Shown here one piece after another: positions 47,066 through 54,632 of a stretch of DNA of 64,000 nucleotides. A program made the position numbers and the translations under genes. This DNA is from Desulfomicrobium sp. ZS1 (GTDB lineage: Bacteria; Desulfobacterota; Desulfovibrionia; Desulfovibrionales; Desulfomicrobiaceae): NCBI RefSeq assembly GCF_024204645.1, contig NZ_CP100351.1:2754001-2818000 (forward strand). Direction: 5' to 3'. Under the pieces are notes generated by a model. It saw only the letters and a program-made list of their open reading frames with translations, did not search any database and had not been told where the DNA came from. The first letter of the stretch is position 1. Every line of letters begins with the position of its first letter.

Positions 47066-47680
47066 CTAGGAGACCACCTCGAACCCTGCGGCGGATATCT
47101 CTTCCATAGGTATCGCTCCCGCCCGCAAAATTCGCACGGAGTTCGCCCCCACGATTTCCACCAGGGTGGACGGCAGTCCTCCGCCGGGCCATGGAGAGTC
47201 CGTAATGACCAACGCCTCCGACAGCCGCACGAGCTCGGGGTCGAGCTCTTCGGGCCTGCACGCGGGTGGCCGCCCGCTGCGGTTGGCGCTGGAAGACACC
47301 AGCGGACCACCGGCTTCCCGGCAGAGCTGCGCGGCAATGGCGTGCGGCGACATGCGCACGGCCGAACGGCCGCCACTGTCCTGTGCAAGCGGACTCACGC
47401 GCTGATCGACTTTAACCACGATGGAAAGCGGCCCCGGCCAAAATTTCCGGGCCAGCGCCTCCTCGACGTTCGTGAGCCGCAAAAAGCGCTCCGCCATCTG
47501 CCAATCGGAGATAATGAGCGGCAGAGGCTTGCCCTTCGGCCGCCCCTTGACCGAAAAAATCCTCTCCACAGCAGAGTGTACGGTGGCCAGACAGCCCAGG
47601 GCGTAAAACGTCTCCGTCGGGTAGATGACCAGCCTTCCTCTTGCAAGTTCAAGCAGTTCGGCTTCATGTACCGCACTCAT
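47066..47680 (-). CDS. L-threonylcarbamoyladenylate synthase (Sua5/YrdC family)
   Basis: Makes threonylcarbamoyl-AMP for the t6A37 modification of ANN-decoding tRNAs. The YrdC domain is recognised by YPTETFYALGCLA, KGRPKGKPLPLIIS, KFWPGPLSIVVK and PLVSSSANRSGRPPA. The start at 47680 gives 204 residues, the short form without the Sua5 C-terminal domain. It is read alone, divergently from a sigma-54-controlled gene. Confidence 0.93.
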   Translation of the reverse strand: MSAVHEAELLELARGRLVIYPTETFYALGCLATVHSAVERIFSVKGRPKGKPLPLIISDWQMAERFLRLTNVEEALARKFWPGPLSIVVKVDQRVSPLAQDSGGRSAVRMSPHAIAAQLCREAGGPLVSSSANRSGRPPACRPEELDPELVRLSEALVITDSPWPGGGLPSTLVEIVGANSVRILRAGAIPMEEISAAGFEVVS

Positions 47681-47826
47681 GCGTCCGGCCCTCCACTGCG
47701 CATTGACCGGGGTCCGGGCAGGCTGGTACATGCCCAATATGAGCGCACATGACGGGGCCCGGCAAACCTTTCCGCCCCATCTAAATAAATTTCAAGTATT
47801 TTCATATCTTACAATCAAAGCTCGTC

Positions 47827-47843
47827 TTGGCAGGGACTTTGCT
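47827..47843 (+). promoter_or_regulatory. Sigma-54 (-24/-12) promoter
   Basis: TTGGCAGGGACTTTGCTT matches the consensus TGGCAYG-N4-TTGCW with one change. The GG (47829-47830) and GC (47841-47842) are exactly ten bases apart. Transcription should start near 47854, 18 bases before the ATG and just before the AAGAAGGAG ribosome-binding site. This is the best -24/-12 site I found in the window. Confidence 0.7.
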
Positions 47844-47871
47844 TGATCTGGTAAAAAAGAAGGAGATGGCC

Positions 47872-48330
47872 ATGAAAATCACCCCGGATCAATTGGCTGC
47901 CCTGCAGCTCCAGCAAAAAAACACGGCCCGGAACACTCCAGGCGAAGGATTCGCAAAGGCTCTGGCCCAGGAGCTGGGATCGGAATCCACCGCCGAGACC
48001 AGCAACGCCGCGCCTGCGACCGGTCCCATGGTTCGACTTGATCAGGCCTTGCAGGCCGCCATGCTACAAAAACCAACAGAGCAGACGGTCATGGACAAGA
48101 TGAATGCATTGCTTTCCAAGTGGGAAGATTATTCCCAAATAATCGGCTCGGAAGACGGCAACCTGCGGGAAGGCTACAGTCTGCTCGCGGACATTCGCCA
48201 AAACATCCAGGAGGTCAAGGGCGACCTGCCCCAAACCTCCGATCAGGGGCTCGCGGCCATGGTCGAAGAGCTGGATATCCTGACCACCACGGAAGAGTTC
48301 AAGTTCAACCGCGGCGACTATCTGAACTGA
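47872..48330 (+). CDS. Small hypothetical protein under a sigma-54 promoter
   Basis: The ATG at 47872 follows AAGAAGGAG and gives 152 residues (MKITPDQLAALQLQQKNTAR). It has no signal peptide or membrane segment. The N-terminal half is low-complexity and Ala/Thr-rich; the C-terminal half is helical and acidic (SLLADIRQNIQEVKGDLP). I do not recognise the family. A sigma-54 promoter, single-gene transcript and terminator suggest tight regulation; flagellar or export association is a guess from known sigma-54 regulons. Confidence 0.75.
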   Translation: MKITPDQLAALQLQQKNTARNTPGEGFAKALAQELGSESTAETSNAAPATGPMVRLDQALQAAMLQKPTEQTVMDKMNALLSKWEDYSQIIGSEDGNLREGYSLLADIRQNIQEVKGDLPQTSDQGLAAMVEELDILTTTEEFKFNRGDYLN

Positions 48331-48364
48331 CGCCCGGTTCCGGTGCCATTTCTCCCGTTTTTTT

Positions 48365-48392
48365 CGGCGCTTCACCTGAAGCGCCGTTTTTT
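48365..48392 (+). terminator. Terminator after the sigma-54-controlled gene
   Basis: CGGCGCTTCA-CCTG-AAGCGCCG forms a 9-base-pair stem followed by six T. It lies 35 bases after the stop and just before the end of the opposing pncC gene. Confidence 0.88.
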
Positions 48393-48396
48393 ATGA

Positions 48397-48867
48397 TCAG
48401 AGCAGTCCTAAAAGGGCCTCACGCACGCTTGAATTTTTGATCTCCCGGCGCGAACCCTGAAACCGAAATTCCCGGCTCCAGACCCTGCGGTTAACCCGCC
48501 ACGCCATCCAGACCAACCCCACAGGTTTTTCCGGAGTGCCCCCGTCCGGACCCGCGATGCCGGAAATGGCCAGGGCAACGGGGACCTTCATCAGCTCGCA
48601 CACTCCATGGACCATGCTCTCCACGCAGGCCTGACTGACCGCGCCATGGCGAATCAATATCTCTTCCGGCACGCCAAGCAGACGCATCTTGACGCGGTTG
48701 TCATAGGCCACGACGCCGCCCTCGAACCAGCGCGAACTTCCCGCCACATCCGTCAGCGTACTGGCCACCAGCCCGCCGGTGCAGGATTCGGCCGTGGCCA
48801 TGCGGGCGCCCTGAAGAAGCAGGGATTCTCCCAACCGAGCGACCATGGTTTCCACATCCAGTTCCAT
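48397..48867 (-). CDS. pncC: Nicotinamide-nucleotide amidohydrolase (CinA C-terminal family)
   Basis: PncC deamidates NMN in pyridine-nucleotide salvage. The signature ATAESCTGGLVASTLTDVAG, with the active-site Ser/Cys region, and VALAISGIAGPDGGTPEKPV are clear. The start at 48867 gives 156 residues, a stand-alone CinA C-terminal domain. The upstream 48868-49127 gap shows no gene; it is the divergent region with the GH94 gene. Confidence 0.9.
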   Translation of the reverse strand: MELDVETMVARLGESLLLQGARMATAESCTGGLVASTLTDVAGSSRWFEGGVVAYDNRVKMRLLGVPEEILIRHGAVSQACVESMVHGVCELMKVPVALAISGIAGPDGGTPEKPVGLVWMAWRVNRRVWSREFRFQGSRREIKNSSVREALLGLL

Positions 48868-49127
48868 CAACCCTCCGCAACGCAGCCGAAGCGCAATTCC
48901 TTGCGCCGCAAAAATAAAAAGAGGCCCGGACGCCAAAAACAGCTCACCGGCACCGAGCCTGGACAACCATCACCCTGAAATCCAAAGAGTATTCTACTCG
49001 CACACCAGGGATCAAGGCAAGTCTTGAATTCAAGACCAACAGGTGAGAAGAATACGCCATCACGGGCACTTCTGCGCCACAACCGTTCGCAGCAGCCCCC
49101 GGCACCCTTAGCCACAGCGGACACCTC

Positions 49128-52100
49128 GTGAAAACTCCCCCCGCCCAGCCATGGTCCTCCCGGCTCGGATTCTGCGCACTCCTGTTCCTTTTCATCCCGG
49201 CGGCCGCCCTGGTTTTCGGAACGCGACCGCCCATCCCCTTTCCAGCCACGCCCGCCGCCACGGCCATCCTGGCCGGAGCCATCGGGCTCCTGTCGGCGAC
49301 GGGACTCACGCTGGTCACGGCGCACCGCCTGCCAGGCCTCCTGGCCGCCCTGAGCGATTTTTCCATCCCGGCAATCTTCACCCTAGCTGCAAACCCAGGC
49401 GTCACCCTCTGGCAGGCTCCGTCGAACTGGCCCGACCTGCTCCGGGTTGGACCGTTGTGCGCGTCATTTTTTGCCTTGAGCCACATCCTGCTTGTGGCCT
49501 TCTCCCTGACGCGCAGGGGAAAACACCCATCACTCCTGGCTCAGGCCAGCCTCCTGGCCGTGCCGTTCATCTTCAACTGGCTCCTGCTCCTGCAGTCTCC
49601 GCACCTGCTGCAGCAACTGACAGGTGCCCTGCCCGGCATCGACGTCCTGTCTCCCCGCGCCCTGGAACTCGGCGGACGGGTCGTGGTCCTGGCCGTGTTC
49701 AACGTCTTCTCGGCCGTCATACTCAACGCCCTGTGCATCGGCGACCTGCTGCGTGAAGCAAAGACCTTCGCCCTGCTGGCCGGCAGCGCCACTCTGGCCG
49801 GTCTGAGTCCCCTGGCCGCCGACCTGGGCTCGTCCCAAGCCGCCGCAACCCTCCCCCAGGGCCTTTCCGTCCTGGCCGCCGTCGCCGCCGTGGCGGTGGC
49901 CCAGGCTGGGCTGTGGAGCCAGACGTTCCTCATGACCGGCCTGCTCATGGACGCATTGAAAGGCAGACGGCCCGCCGGGTATTGGGGGGCGCACCACTTC
50001 CGGGAAGGTCTGGGCAAAGGGGCGATGTACAGCGCCCTCTTCCTGGGGCTCCTTTTCCTGGTCCGGACCATGGCCGAGTCCCCGTTGATGGAGGCGCTCA
50101 GGCTGATCCTCCCCCTGGCCACGCACCTGGCCGTGGGCGCGATGTTCATGCCCCTGGCCAAGACCATTCTCGAAACTTTTGACGGCAGCCCTACGTTTTT
50201 CTCACGCCTTGTAAACAACGCCTGCAGCACCCATCTCTACCTTCGCGGAGCGCTGCTCGGTTTCGGCCTGCATCTGATCCCGATCCACGAACTCATGCAC
50301 AAGAATCCGGGAATCCGCTTCCTGCTCGGGGCGGGCATGGGGGCCATGGTCTACGCCGGCGCAGGCATGGCTTTGGACCTGCTGGAAAAATTCCGGGGCA
50401 GGCGGCAACGATTGCAGAACTGGCGCGTCTACCTGAACGGGACGCTGCTGGGTGGCTTCGTGGGCGGGGCCATCGCCTGGTACGTGGACCCCAGCCAGTC
50501 CGCCGTGGTGCTGAACAAATTCCGCATGTACGTCACCCTGCACGTCCAGAACCCGCAGGACTACGTCATCTACCCTCTGTTCAGCAAATGGGGGGCCATG
50601 AACCTGGGGCCCCAGACCGGCAGCGCGCGGCTGCTCTTCAACGAGTCCGTGTCGGGCGTGATCAACTGGTCCCTGGCCGCGCCCCTCTTCAGCGTCAATT
50701 TCTTCTTCCTGACGGCCCTCTTCGCCCGCAGCTGGGCCCCGGTGCGGCTCATGGCCAGCCGCCAAGGCGTCATCGCCATCGCCGAGCAGACCGTTCGCGT
50801 CCTGCGCTGGGGACTGTGGATGGCGCCGGTCATCTACTCCCTGCTGCGCATCTCCCCGGACCCCACCTGGTACAACCAGGACGGCGCCATCCGCACCCTG
50901 GCCGCCATCTGGCAGAGCATCGTGCTCACGCCCGGGGCCTTCCGGGGCTGGAGCATCGAGACATTTCTGCACCTTTTGGCCTACGACTGGGTGCGCATCC
51001 TCATCTGGTTCGACCACATGGGCCTGCGCGTGGCCACCCTGGTCAACCTGTCCTTTGTCGGCGGCGACGCCCTGGACGAATTTCTGGCGCGCTTTCAGGG
51101 ACACGCCGGGCGCACGCGCTGCATCCCCGAAGCCCTGCGCCGCTTCGCCACATGGGCCCCGCTGCTCATCCCCTTCTTCCTGCCCATGGGCGCGGACTGG
51201 GCCCATGTCTGGGATGGGGCTGAAGCCATCCAGAAGACGGGACAGGGGCAGGCTTCGCCTCTGGCGGCGCTCATCGTCCTTTTCACTGTCGTCGCGCTCG
51301 GAGTCGGCATCGTCAGGGCGCGCGGCCGCAAACAGCCGACGGGCGGCGTGCGCCCGGCCCACGGACCACAGCGGCCAAATTTGCGCCCCGCAGACGAGAT
51401 CGCCCTGTGCAATGGCGTATACACGGCCCTCTTCACGCAGGACGGCCGTGGATACAGCCGCGTCTTCAGTTCCATAAGACACGGGATGGAATACGACCTG
51501 ACCAATCGCCCCACATCCCGAGCCCACATTGCCGGCAAATTCATCTACCTGCGCGATGAGCACGGGGAAGCATGGTCCCTGGGTTTTAGTCCCATCACGC
51601 GCGACGACGCGCAGACCTCCGTGGAGCGAACCTCGCCCCTCTCGGTCGCGCTGAGCTGCCGCTGCCGGAACATCGAGACCAAAGCCGACGTGACCGTCCC
51701 CGCGGAACTGAGCGCGGAAACATGCCGCATCCGCATCACGAACACGGGCGCCACGCCGCGCCGCATCGACCTGGTCTCGTACCGGGAAATCTGCCTGAAC
51801 GACCCCAATCCCCAGCTGCGCCACCCCTTCTACAACCGCCAGCATATCGCCACGTGGTTCGTCCGGGAACAGCAGGTCGTCTTCGCCCGCAACCGCATGA
51901 TCAAGACCCTAGGCAACGCGCGCGGCGGACCGAGACCCTCGCCCGAAGTCTATTTCCACGCAGCCCATCTCCCGAACCCTGCCCGGGTTTGCCTGCTCGG
52001 CTACCAAGACAGCCGCGCGGCCTTCTTGGGCGACAGAACCCTGCGCGATCCCGAAGGGCTGGACCAGGCGCCTCTGAAAACCGACAACACGGACCTGCAC

Positions 52101-54632
52101 TACACCTTCGACCCCATCGCCAGCCTTTTTTTGCGCTTCGAGCTCGAACCGGGGGAATCGGCCGAAGCGGTGCTTATCGACGGATACGCCCCGGAGGCGG
52201 AAGCCGGCTCCCGGCTCCTGAGCCGCATTCTGGATCAGACCTCCAGCGCAGTCGACCATCCGAACAAAAGCGCCAGCGCATCGCGGCAAATCCGCGAGCC
52301 CTCCATCGAAGAAATGCTCCTGCCCGCGCAGGAAAGCGCCTACAGCTTCTCGGAGAACGGGGAACAACTCCGCCTCAATTGGAAAACACCGCGCCGCTGG
52401 GAGCATCTCATGGTCAATGATCTGGGGTACGGCACCCTCGTGACCAACGACGGCTCCTTTTCCTCATTCATGGGCAACTCCCAGCAGAACGCCATCACGC
52501 CCTTCGCCCCGGACACCATGACCACCCAGGAACCGGGCCAAGTGCTCTTCCTGCGGGACGCGGACACCGGCGAGTTGTCCTCTCCCACATACATCCCCTT
52601 CCGGGAAAAGGACGCGACCCTGGACGTGACGTTCGGCCTGGGCCACTGCGTGTTCCGCAAGACCAGGGGAAGCGTCACCACGGAATTAACGGCCTTCGTG
52701 CGCCACGACCAGCCCATGGAGGCCCGGCTGCTGCGCATCGTCAACGCAGGGGATCGGCCGGTATCCTACGACGTGACCTTCTTCGCGCAGATCATCCTGG
52801 CCGAGATACCCATGGACTCCGCCGGACAGATCGTCACGGAGGAGGATCGGGAAAAAGGCGTCCTCTTTTTCAGCCGGCCGGAGAACAGGTTTCAGCGGGG
52901 CTGGGCCTTCGTGGCATCGAGCCTGCCCTGCACGGCCATGGAGACCAGCCTGAACCGCTTCATGGGCGCAGGCCGGACCATTTCCACTGCGTACATGGTG
53001 GAAACCGGCGAGCCCGACATGGATCAAGATGACGACGGATACCGCGTGGCCGCAATTTCCGGACGCATAACCGTACCGGCCAGGGGGGAGGCCCACATGC
53101 ACGTACTCGTGGGGCAGGTGCCGGAGCGGGACGACTGCCGGCGGCTCATATCCTCCATGCGCAGGACCGACGATGTTCTGGCCGCCCTTCGCCGCACCAC
53201 AGCCATGTGGCGCGAGATGCTCGGAACCATCCGCATCGAAACGACCAGCCGGGCCTTCGACCGCCTGGTCAACATCTGGCTGCCCTACCAGATTCTGACG
53301 GCCCGCCTCTGGGGCCGGTTGGGGCCGCAACAGCGCAGCGGAGCCTACGGTTTCAGGGACCAGCTTCAGGACGTGCTGCCCCTGACCATGCTGCGGCCCA
53401 GCCTGGCCCGCGCACAGATCCTGCTGCACGCGCGCCAGCAGTTCCTGGCTGGCGATGTGCTGCAGTGGTGGCACCAGACCTGCGACGGACGCACGGGCCT
53501 TGGCATCCGCAACCGCGCCTCCGACCCGCACCTGTGGCTGGCCTACATGACCTGCCGCTATGTAGAGGTCACGGGCGACCGCGCCATTCTGTCCGAACCC
53601 ATCCCCTTCATCGAGGGTCCGTCGATCCCGCGCGGTCAAGAAGGCATCGCCTTTGTCCCCCGACTTTCGCAGGATCAAGGGTCGCTGCTGGAGCACTGTG
53701 TGCGCGGCGTGGATCTGACGCTCTCGCGCCTGGGGCGAAACGGACTGCCCCTCATGGGTGCCCACGACTGGAACGACGGGCTGTCGGCCGTGGGAGCGAA
53801 AGAAAAGGGAACAAGCGTCTGGCTCGGCTTCTTCCTGCACGATGTGCTGCGGACCATCACGCCCCTGGTGGAGGAGGGCGGCGGCAAAGCCAAGGCCGAG
53901 AATTACAGGTTCCAGGCGGCCCGACTGCGCGAGGCCCTGGACAGGATGTGGAAGAACGGCCACTTTGCCCGGGCCGTTTCCGACACGGGAGAGATCCTCG
54001 ATTACGTTGACGCGCTGTGTTCCGCCTGGCCCCTGCTGTCCGGGGCGGCGGACCCGATCAAGGACGAAACCGCCCTTCTGACGGGCCTTGCGCGTCTGGA
54101 GAAGGAAAACATGGTGCTGCTGCTGACCCCATTCTTCGACGAGGAGTCCAAACCCTATCCCGGCCGCATCGCCGACTATCCTCCGGGAGTGCGTGAGAAC
54201 GGCGGCCAGTATTCCCACGGCGCGTCCTGGCTGGTGGACGCCCTGACCATGCTTTCGCGCCGGGCTTTGGAGAACGGGGACGCGGACTGCGCTGCCAAGC
54301 TACGCCGCGATGCGCTGCGGGTCTGGCTCAAGATATCGCCCCTGGCCCATGCCCGGGGGGAGGAACTGCAGACCTACGGGCTGCCACCCCACCAGCAGGC
54401 GGCCGACATTTTCCACGGCCCCGGCTTCGAAGGTCGTGGAGGTTGGAGTTGGTACACGGGCGCGGCGGCGCGCATGCTTTGGGCTGCATACGACCTCTTG
54501 GGCATCGGCGTGCGCGGCGGCGAGCCACATCTGGACAGGACGGCTCTCGAAATGGACGGGGCTATCCGCGTGCGCAGGGTTTGGATGCACGGCAAGGAAA
54601 TTTTTACGGCAAAGGAGAAAAATGATGACTGA
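49128..54632 (+). CDS. Giant membrane-anchored GH94-type protein (NdvB-related)
   Basis: An 1834-residue protein starting at GTG. Residues 1-730 are largely hydrophobic with more than ten predicted membrane segments, and no GT84 glycosyltransferase motif stands out. From about residue 755 come two glycosyl-phosphorylase N-terminal beta-sandwich domains (YTALFTQDGRGYSRVFSSI, then a second copy near 1090 with GYGTLVTNDGSFSSFMG). From about 1370 an alpha/alpha barrel follows, containing GAYGFRDQLQDVLPL and the catalytic HDWNDGLS near 1546, where GH94 phosphorylases have the general acid Asp. It resembles the phosphorylase part of cyclic beta-1,2-glucan synthase, which trims glucan chains. Its substrate is unknown. 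Confidence 0.85.
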   Translation: MKTPPAQPWSSRLGFCALLFLFIPAAALVFGTRPPIPFPATPAATAILAGAIGLLSATGLTLVTAHRLPGLLAALSDFSIPAIFTLAANPGVTLWQAPSNWPDLLRVGPLCASFFALSHILLVAFSLTRRGKHPSLLAQASLLAVPFIFNWLLLLQSPHLLQQLTGALPGIDVLSPRALELGGRVVVLAVFNVFSAVILNALCIGDLLREAKTFALLAGSATLAGLSPLAADLGSSQAAATLPQGLSVLAAVAAVAVAQAGLWSQTFLMTGLLMDALKGRRPAGYWGAHHFREGLGKGAMYSALFLGLLFLVRTMAESPLMEALRLILPLATHLAVGAMFMPLAKTILETFDGSPTFFSRLVNNACSTHLYLRGALLGFGLHLIPIHELMHKNPGIRFLLGAGMGAMVYAGAGMALDLLEKFRGRRQRLQNWRVYLNGTLLGGFVGGAIAWYVDPSQSAVVLNKFRMYVTLHVQNPQDYVIYPLFSKWGAMNLGPQTGSARLLFNESVSGVINWSLAAPLFSVNFFFLTALFARSWAPVRLMASRQGVIAIAEQTVRVLRWGLWMAPVIYSLLRISPDPTWYNQDGAIRTLAAIWQSIVLTPGAFRGWSIETFLHLLAYDWVRILIWFDHMGLRVATLVNLSFVGGDALDEFLARFQGHAGRTRCIPEALRRFATWAPLLIPFFLPMGADWAHVWDGAEAIQKTGQGQASPLAALIVLFTVVALGVGIVRARGRKQPTGGVRPAHGPQRPNLRPADEIALCNGVYTALFTQDGRGYSRVFSSIRHGMEYDLTNRPTSRAHIAGKFIYLRDEHGEAWSLGFSPITRDDAQTSVERTSPLSVALSCRCRNIETKADVTVPAELSAETCRIRITNTGATPRRIDLVSYREICLNDPNPQLRHPFYNRQHIATWFVREQQVVFARNRMIKTLGNARGGPRPSPEVYFHAAHLPNPARVCLLGYQDSRAAFLGDRTLRDPEGLDQAPLKTDNTDLHYTFDPIASLFLRFELEPGESAEAVLIDGYAPEAEAGSRLLSRILDQTSSAVDHPNKSASASRQIREPSIEEMLLPAQESAYSFSENGEQLRLNWKTPRRWEHLMVNDLGYGTLVTNDGSFSSFMGNSQQNAITPFAPDTMTTQEPGQVLFLRDADTGELSSPTYIPFREKDATLDVTFGLGHCVFRKTRGSVTTELTAFVRHDQPMEARLLRIVNAGDRPVSYDVTFFAQIILAEIPMDSAGQIVTEEDREKGVLFFSRPENRFQRGWAFVASSLPCTAMETSLNRFMGAGRTISTAYMVETGEPDMDQDDDGYRVAAISGRITVPARGEAHMHVLVGQVPERDDCRRLISSMRRTDDVLAALRRTTAMWREMLGTIRIETTSRAFDRLVNIWLPYQILTARLWGRLGPQQRSGAYGFRDQLQDVLPLTMLRPSLARAQILLHARQQFLAGDVLQWWHQTCDGRTGLGIRNRASDPHLWLAYMTCRYVEVTGDRAILSEPIPFIEGPSIPRGQEGIAFVPRLSQDQGSLLEHCVRGVDLTLSRLGRNGLPLMGAHDWNDGLSAVGAKEKGTSVWLGFFLHDVLRTITPLVEEGGGKAKAENYRFQAARLREALDRMWKNGHFARAVSDTGEILDYVDALCSAWPLLSGAADPIKDETALLTGLARLEKENMVLLLTPFFDEESKPYPGRIADYPPGVRENGGQYSHGASWLVDALTMLSRRALENGDADCAAKLRRDALRVWLKISPLAHARGEELQTYGLPPHQQAADIFHGPGFEGRGGWSWYTGAAARMLWAAYDLLGIGVRGGEPHLDRTALEMDGAIRVRRVWMHGKEIFTAKEKNDD

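Follow-up and report, generated by a model that had tools for sequence, protein, structure and literature searches.

A conserved sigma-54-type gene of Desulfomicrobium encodes a putative FliX-type partner of a FlbD-like flagellar activator

The DNA analysed here (the window) is a stretch of 64,000 nucleotides from Desulfomicrobium sp. ZS1. It contains a small gene with its own promoter and terminator, set between two genes of the opposite strand:

47066..47737, minus strand: divergent neighbour of the Sua5/YrdC family, outside the system (PF01300, E 6.7e-45).
47761..47773, plus strand: palindromic enhancer-like site GGCAAACCTTTCC within a conserved block, candidate site of a FlbD-like activator.
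47828..47842, plus strand: -24/-12 sigma-54-type promoter TGGCAGGGACTTTGC, read as TGGCA-N6-TTGC with GG-N10-GC spacing.
47860..47865, plus strand: Shine-Dalgarno AAGGAG, read from the sequence, in a region conserved within the genus (genus alignment).
47872..48330, plus strand: gene for a candidate FliX-like protein of 152 aa with the C-terminal end KFNRGDYLN; ATG at 47872, stop ending at 48330.
48365..48386, plus strand: intrinsic-terminator-like hairpin of 9 pairs followed by T6, read from the sequence.
48397..48966, minus strand: convergent neighbour of the CinA family, outside the system (PF02464, E 3.6e-54).

Because the Sua5/YrdC and CinA genes that flank it both lie on the opposite strand, the FliX-like gene forms a single-gene unit, and the interval 48330-48400 has a fold z of -4.7. 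The initial annotation had described a 152-residue single gene followed by a terminator, and that description holds. Two details of its layout need correction. It began the feature at 47827, the promoter position, where a longer frame also begins with TTG; the ATG itself is at 47872. It also put the promoter 18 bases before a ribosome-binding site; the site is present, but the gap is 15 bases, counted from the end of the 18-base stretch TTGGCAGGGACTTTGCTT at 47827-47844. Further along the window, 49128-54632 on the plus strand encodes an 1834-aa protein with GH94 domains, which we take to resemble cyclic beta-glucan synthases.

The claim of a near-perfect sigma-54 promoter with exact -24/-12 spacing was confirmed. 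By itself the motif is within chance, since TGGCACG-N4-TTGC with up to three mismatches occurs 207 times in the window against 237 expected, and forms with a single mismatch occur in at least 4 places. It is conservation across homologous loci that marks the promoter as real. Among the 70 loci fetched of the 77 found, TGGCA-N6-TTGC lies within 150 nt before the start codon in exact form in 62 and with one mismatch in 8 (of which L066 is a poor example), compared with chance values of 0.26% and 3.7% in dinucleotide-preserving shuffles. The element is retained although identity to the window protein drops to about 27-30%. The proposed check on promoter conservation upstream of orthologues thus gave a clear answer, with at most one mismatch in 70 of 70 loci. 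Genome-wide, TTGGCA-N6-TTGC occurs in 21 copies and the reversed pattern in 3; by a simple rule, 10 of these 21 copies have no ORF just downstream. One exact element lies 79 bases before a NifH-looking ORF, so named by eye (L273, G000:C1:937931), and is a plausible positive control for the motif. Separately, the leaders of several homologues, for example L031 and L033, carry ACAGGAT-AGGAG-like stretches around the Shine-Dalgarno sequence, which presumably resemble a CsrA site.

Upstream of the promoter, the palindrome sits inside the block CCCGGCAAACCTTTCCGCC (47758-47776), conserved in an alignment of ten genus genomes. Its core form is GGCA-N5-TGCC, with one mismatch in this species, where the form GGCA-N4-TGCC has no upstream match within one mismatch. 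Up to 300 nt from the start codon, the N5 form is found exactly in 22 of the 70 loci and within one mismatch in 44, compared with 0.6% and 10.9% in plain shuffles. In 49 of the 70 loci, a degenerate expression composed after the alignment was seen, GG[ACT]A-N5-T[TGA]CC, has a match 65-70 bases ahead of the -24 T; for a fixed interval of ten start positions, the chance rate is 0.13%. Most other placements are of two kinds: 41-43 bases after the -24 T in 8 of the 70 loci (L018, L019, L021, L022, L024, L035, L049 and L060, all one family), and at about -150 or -180 in another 8. Five loci lack a palindrome at the main positions, two of which have one at -75 and -78. This fixed-distance palindrome is a new point, beyond what the initial annotation had described.

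The Caulobacter FlbD site is CCCGGCA-N5-TGCCGGG, and that of the Desulfovibrio regulator DVU1063 is GGCA-N4-TGCC (PMC3333781); the palindrome described here is like the Caulobacter site in its GGCA-N5-TGCC core. Elsewhere in this genome, a clear palindrome was not seen at the sigma-54-type promoters of FliD-like and TPR-like genes (by scan) or of one flagellin gene and flgF (by eye). A weak promoter candidate at 205077 has a palindrome at -89. The palindrome string has one other exact copy in the genome (G000:C1:3078986), and no -24/-12 element with at most one mismatch closely follows it. Because the palindrome is not evident at the other flagellar sigma-54-type promoters of the genome, its assignment to a FlbD-like protein is one that we infer.

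The gene had been called an unrecognised orphan. The window protein alone indeed matches no family, but homologues are present in 77 of 101 related genomes, and their occurrence in about 100 of the phylum's sampled genomes beyond the order further contradicts the orphan label. The distribution follows that of flagella. FliP was found in 88 of the 101 genomes and in 86 after two were set aside (G054 and G091), in which the match scores like second copies elsewhere (E about 1e-65) and appears to be a type III secretion homologue. The gene is present in 77 of the 86 genomes with flagellar-type FliP and in none of the 15 others (Fisher p 4e-12, kinship ignored). The suggested check for co-occurrence with flagellar genes therefore came out positive: all 77 carriers have FliP, and 0 of the 15 genomes without flagellar-type FliP carry the gene. 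The protein very probably has a flagellar role. As for the earlier proposal of a new sigma-54 regulon member, a conserved sigma-54-type gene is what we find, and promoter, FliP and palindrome point to the flagellar regulon; its newness is improbable.

In Desulfovibrio sp. A2, which we take to be a near relative, aminotransferase and Usp genes flank the homologue on one side, and a glucokinase gene lies about 3 kb from it on the opposite side, an order that presumably agrees with that around DVU1032 in D. vulgaris. Among open-licence PMC papers, none was found for the gene numbers next to DVU1032. By this gene order, DVU1032, a member of the DVU1063 regulon, is probably the D. vulgaris counterpart and so the same gene as the one in the window. 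Published work places DVU1032 among the targets of the FlbD-like regulator DVU1063, in the latter's flagellar regulon (PMC4641369). The DVU1032 promoter and three others seeded the Desulfovibrio sigma-54 motif, and the promoters are said to fit 5'-RNA-seq; the accessible part of that paper gives DVU1032 no function (PMC4641369). Given this listing and the matching gene order, membership of the regulon is probably known already, and the idea of a candidate new member probably falls, its presumed counterpart being a listed target of DVU1063 (PMC4641369).

What does appear to be new is a relationship to FliX, of which the initial annotation made no mention. Alone, the window protein gives nothing significant in Pfam or NCBIfam; it has no Pfam FliX match and falls below every FliX cut-off, reaching 12.1 bits (E 0.19) against one NCBIfam FliX model with a cut-off of 153. 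When 51 homologues from the order were scanned singly, FliX led in Pfam (9 of 51, best E 2.5e-7), and three NCBIfam FliX models matched 9, 6 and 4 of the 51 (best 2.7e-4). FliX also led in Pfam for a second set, made up of the window protein and 40 out-of-order homologues (9 of 41, best 7.1e-4), for which the NCBIfam FliX models matched 9, 6 and 1 of the 41 (best 8.1e-6), followed by a flagellin model at 9.5e-5. One homologue, L034, exceeds the Pfam FliX cut-off (PF10768; 31.7 versus 25 bits), its residues 8-139 aligning to positions 6-130 of the 135 in the model. It is the only over-cut-off match in the 101 genomes; among 14 control genomes, Caulobacter alone exceeds the cut-off.

Other families were also matched. 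DUF7260 ties FliX in number in the order set (9 of 51) with weaker scores (best 6.6e-4), and in the out-of-order set it is matched only by the window protein (E 0.03); we rejected it as a candidate. Single members match unrelated families at E 7.8e-5 and 2.3e-4 in the order set and at 9.5e-5 in the out-of-order set, and for this reason values near 1e-4 are weak. With the DUF7260 tie and unrelated families reaching down to 7.8e-5, only the 2.5e-7 match and the agreement of the two libraries carry weight.

We also searched in the reverse direction with a profile of 110 homologues against 6876 ORFs of 100-300 aa from the loci plus 1000 shuffles of an Erythrobacter plasmid FliX, with filters off and family members removed by rule. 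This FliX, so named in its record and the one alphaproteobacterial FliX compared, ranked first among the non-family sequences (E 1.3e-4), followed by an extended version of the same ORF, with its start further upstream, and then by a match at 0.088. A profile built without the four close homologues gave it E 3.7e-5, the rank among non-family sequences coming only from the full profile. The order-only profile did not find it (E 3.2, rank 11). With hhalign, the values were 50% and 39%, and 4% for the order alignment. FliX was found on one of nine plasmid records, and a search of all plasmids with the Erythrobacter protein returned only itself. A sequence search of the PDB with the order profile (E up to 1) gave 20 sequences, of which the best was a designed protein (E 0.001) and the others, many of them helical proteins, scored 0.016 or worse. 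Taken together, these comparisons make distant homology of the window protein family to FliX likely but not proven. Among open-licence PMC papers, whole-word searches found no literature on FliX in Desulfovibrio or Deltaproteobacteria flagella, and by titles and abstracts no paper treating FliX in Desulfobacterota was apparent among those listed.

The FlbD-like protein of this genome (L240, 469 aa, G000:C1:3662121-3663527) has a receiver without the usual acidic residues, as judged by eye. It shares the helix-turn-helix GISVRT[LM]RNK with the FlbD-like protein of the FliX-carrying Erythrobacter plasmid, the single NtrC-type protein found there. Among the 29 of 40 own-genome matches to that protein that were compared, L240 came second (254 bits), after L221 (256 bits), whose receiver is ordinary-looking. 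Orthologues of the L240 receiver were found in 73 of the 101 genomes at E<=1e-14, a threshold put in a visible gap (next match 7.1e-10). They occur in 69 of the 77 gene carriers and are missing in 8 (kinship ignored), and the orthologue occurs in the gene's absence in 4 genomes, of which three have a completeness of 63-88% and the fourth, at 99%, is in 530 contigs. Across the 86 flagellated genomes, both are present in 69, the gene only in 8, the FlbD-like protein only in 4 and neither in 5 (p 0.003), a weaker association. The Desulfovibrio FlbD-like regulator likewise has an atypical receiver, and its partner goes unnamed in the accessible part of the source (PMC3333781). Another sigma-54 activator of this genome (L229, a 353-aa frame at G000:C1:3604287-3605267) has no receiver and is possibly like DVU2894; some 2.3 kb away, at 3607583, there is a match to a small rod-type flagellar protein.

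Beyond the order, the order profile matches 116 of 395 sampled genomes of the phylum, and about 100 of these are outside the order, a figure that rests on the 16 of 17 genomes of the order matched among the genomes listed, a list that leaves out 259 genomes with no match; a few of the weakest out-of-order matches fall in long unrelated frames. We examined 40 out-of-order loci. A sigma-54 element within one mismatch is present in 15 (chance 0.9% each), a sigma-28-like element within three mismatches in 11 (chance 3%), and one or the other in 25. In the 150 nt upstream of the homologue in L168-L207, the promoter type alternates between sigma-54 and sigma-28-like, as if the gene had moved between flagellar classes. 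Genes for flagellar proteins, chemotaxis proteins or sigma-54 activators, identified for the most part by eye, adjoin the homologue in about 15 of the 40 loci. Small rod-type proteins adjoin the gene, by eye, in L168, L174, L175, L176, L179 and L192; all three of these neighbours that were tested exceed the PF06429 cut-off (best E 2.2e-12), one of them exceeding that of PF00460 too. A CheR neighbour is present in L178 and, by eye, in L185 and L197, with a CheB-like neighbour in L205 and a CheW-like one in L203 (both by eye). Sigma-54 activators lie downstream in L182, L186, L188 and L202. In L186 the order is CheB-like, CheZ-like, CheY-like, the FliX-like gene and an NtrC-type activator with a normal receiver score. 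At the remaining loci, the neighbours are unrelated or unrecognised.

Some of these loci share other small ORFs. In L170, L171, L181, L183 and L195, a co-linear downstream ORF of about 110-120 aa starts YN-LG--GP-Y-RPEYRPP; it is a candidate new flagellar protein, and the one tested has no Pfam match. Immediately before the homologue in L172, L196 and L204 comes an ORF of about 100-110 aa whose tail resembles YQYDRLRE or YRYEHLR; the two tested have no Pfam match. One record titled Betaproteobacteria (L135, WRKB01000205.1) carries the gene, otherwise seen in Desulfobacterota-type records, and is perhaps a misnamed bin.

We consider it probable, on sequence comparison, that the gene encodes a divergent FliX-type partner of the FlbD-like activator, within that activator's own regulon and outside the Alphaproteobacteria. 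This reading draws on the conserved promoter, the palindrome at fixed distance, the restriction to genomes with flagellar-type FliP, the co-occurrence with the FlbD-like protein and the distant FliX relation. In the proposed mechanism, a FlbD-like sigma-54 activator, whose receiver is seemingly unfit for ordinary phosphorylation, would bind the palindrome about 67 bases upstream and fire the -24/-12 promoter of the FliX-like gene. The small FliX-like protein would in turn bind the activator, restraining it while the early flagellar base is incomplete and then releasing or stimulating it, the sign of the effect being the presumed one. Later flagellar genes would then be expressed only when their products are usable. 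Because the gene is itself a target of the activator, the checkpoint would regulate its own supply, a putative feedback.

Alternatively, the protein could belong to the flagellar sigma-54 regulon without being a regulator, as an export chaperone or as a rod- or hook-associated assembly factor. The small rod-type proteins beside the gene in 6 of the 40 out-of-order loci (by eye; three tested over PF06429) suggest such a role, as do weak FliE matches in three out-of-order members (best E 0.029). However, FliX leads in both libraries and in both sets, FlgN and FlgM are absent from the 25 families listed of 83 and of 79, and in four loci the downstream gene instead encodes a sigma-54 activator; we therefore regard a non-regulatory role as unlikely. 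A protein of some other sigma-54-controlled process that merely tracks flagellated lifestyles would account for the neighbours in this genome, which are unrelated to flagella, and for the many out-of-order loci, the majority, in which no flagellar neighbour was recognised by eye. It is nonetheless very improbable given the gene's absence from all 15 genomes without flagellar-type FliP, the FlbD-type site upstream, the flagellar or chemotaxis neighbours and sigma-28-like promoters in part of the out-of-order loci, and the place of DVU1032, if it is the same gene, in the flagellar regulon. A promoter match arising by chance, with the gene transcribed some other way, would fit the lack of motif enrichment in the window but is scarcely credible, with the element within one mismatch in 70 of 70 loci and no sigma-70-like site found across 47700-48500.

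The FliX-type reading of the window gene has a wider and more tentative extension, in which a FliX-type checkpoint spread through the phylum would act on flagellar sigma-54 activators with altered receivers and also on adjacent ones with ordinary phosphorylatable receivers; this may be so, but we lean slightly against it. If true, the FliX-FlbD switch would be an old and general gate on flagellar genes, one whose output would, in this order, govern its own input. FliX has been described in polarly flagellated Alphaproteobacteria (PMC3096577), and the candidate relative here lies outside them. It is an open question how an activator that lacks a kinase could sense flagellar assembly (PMC7064773; PMC3930126). 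The gene offers a candidate partner, one that is amenable to testing in D. vulgaris. The diverse natural sequences, from 77 genomes and about 100 more, could be used for mapping the contact with the activator.

In Caulobacter, FliX binds FlbD, restraining it before the flagellar base is built and stimulating it afterwards, and FlbD is not under kinase control (PMC3096577; PMC3930126). The family described here resembles Caulobacter crescentus FliX (PF10768) in its similar length, in the nearly complete coverage of the model by L034 and in its tie to a sigma-54 flagellar activator. It differs in lying outside the Alphaproteobacteria, in its very low similarity and in its C-terminal KF-RGDY tail, which is not found in the one FliX compared, from Erythrobacter. 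Regulation differs as well: the gene here has a sigma-54-type promoter and a FlbD-type site, whereas Caulobacter fliX is an early gene under CtrA (PMC3930126). The NtrC-type flagellar regulators FlgR, FlrC and FleR likewise place a sigma-54 checkpoint on flagellar assembly (PMC7064773), but they use a histidine kinase, in place of which we propose a FliX-like partner here.
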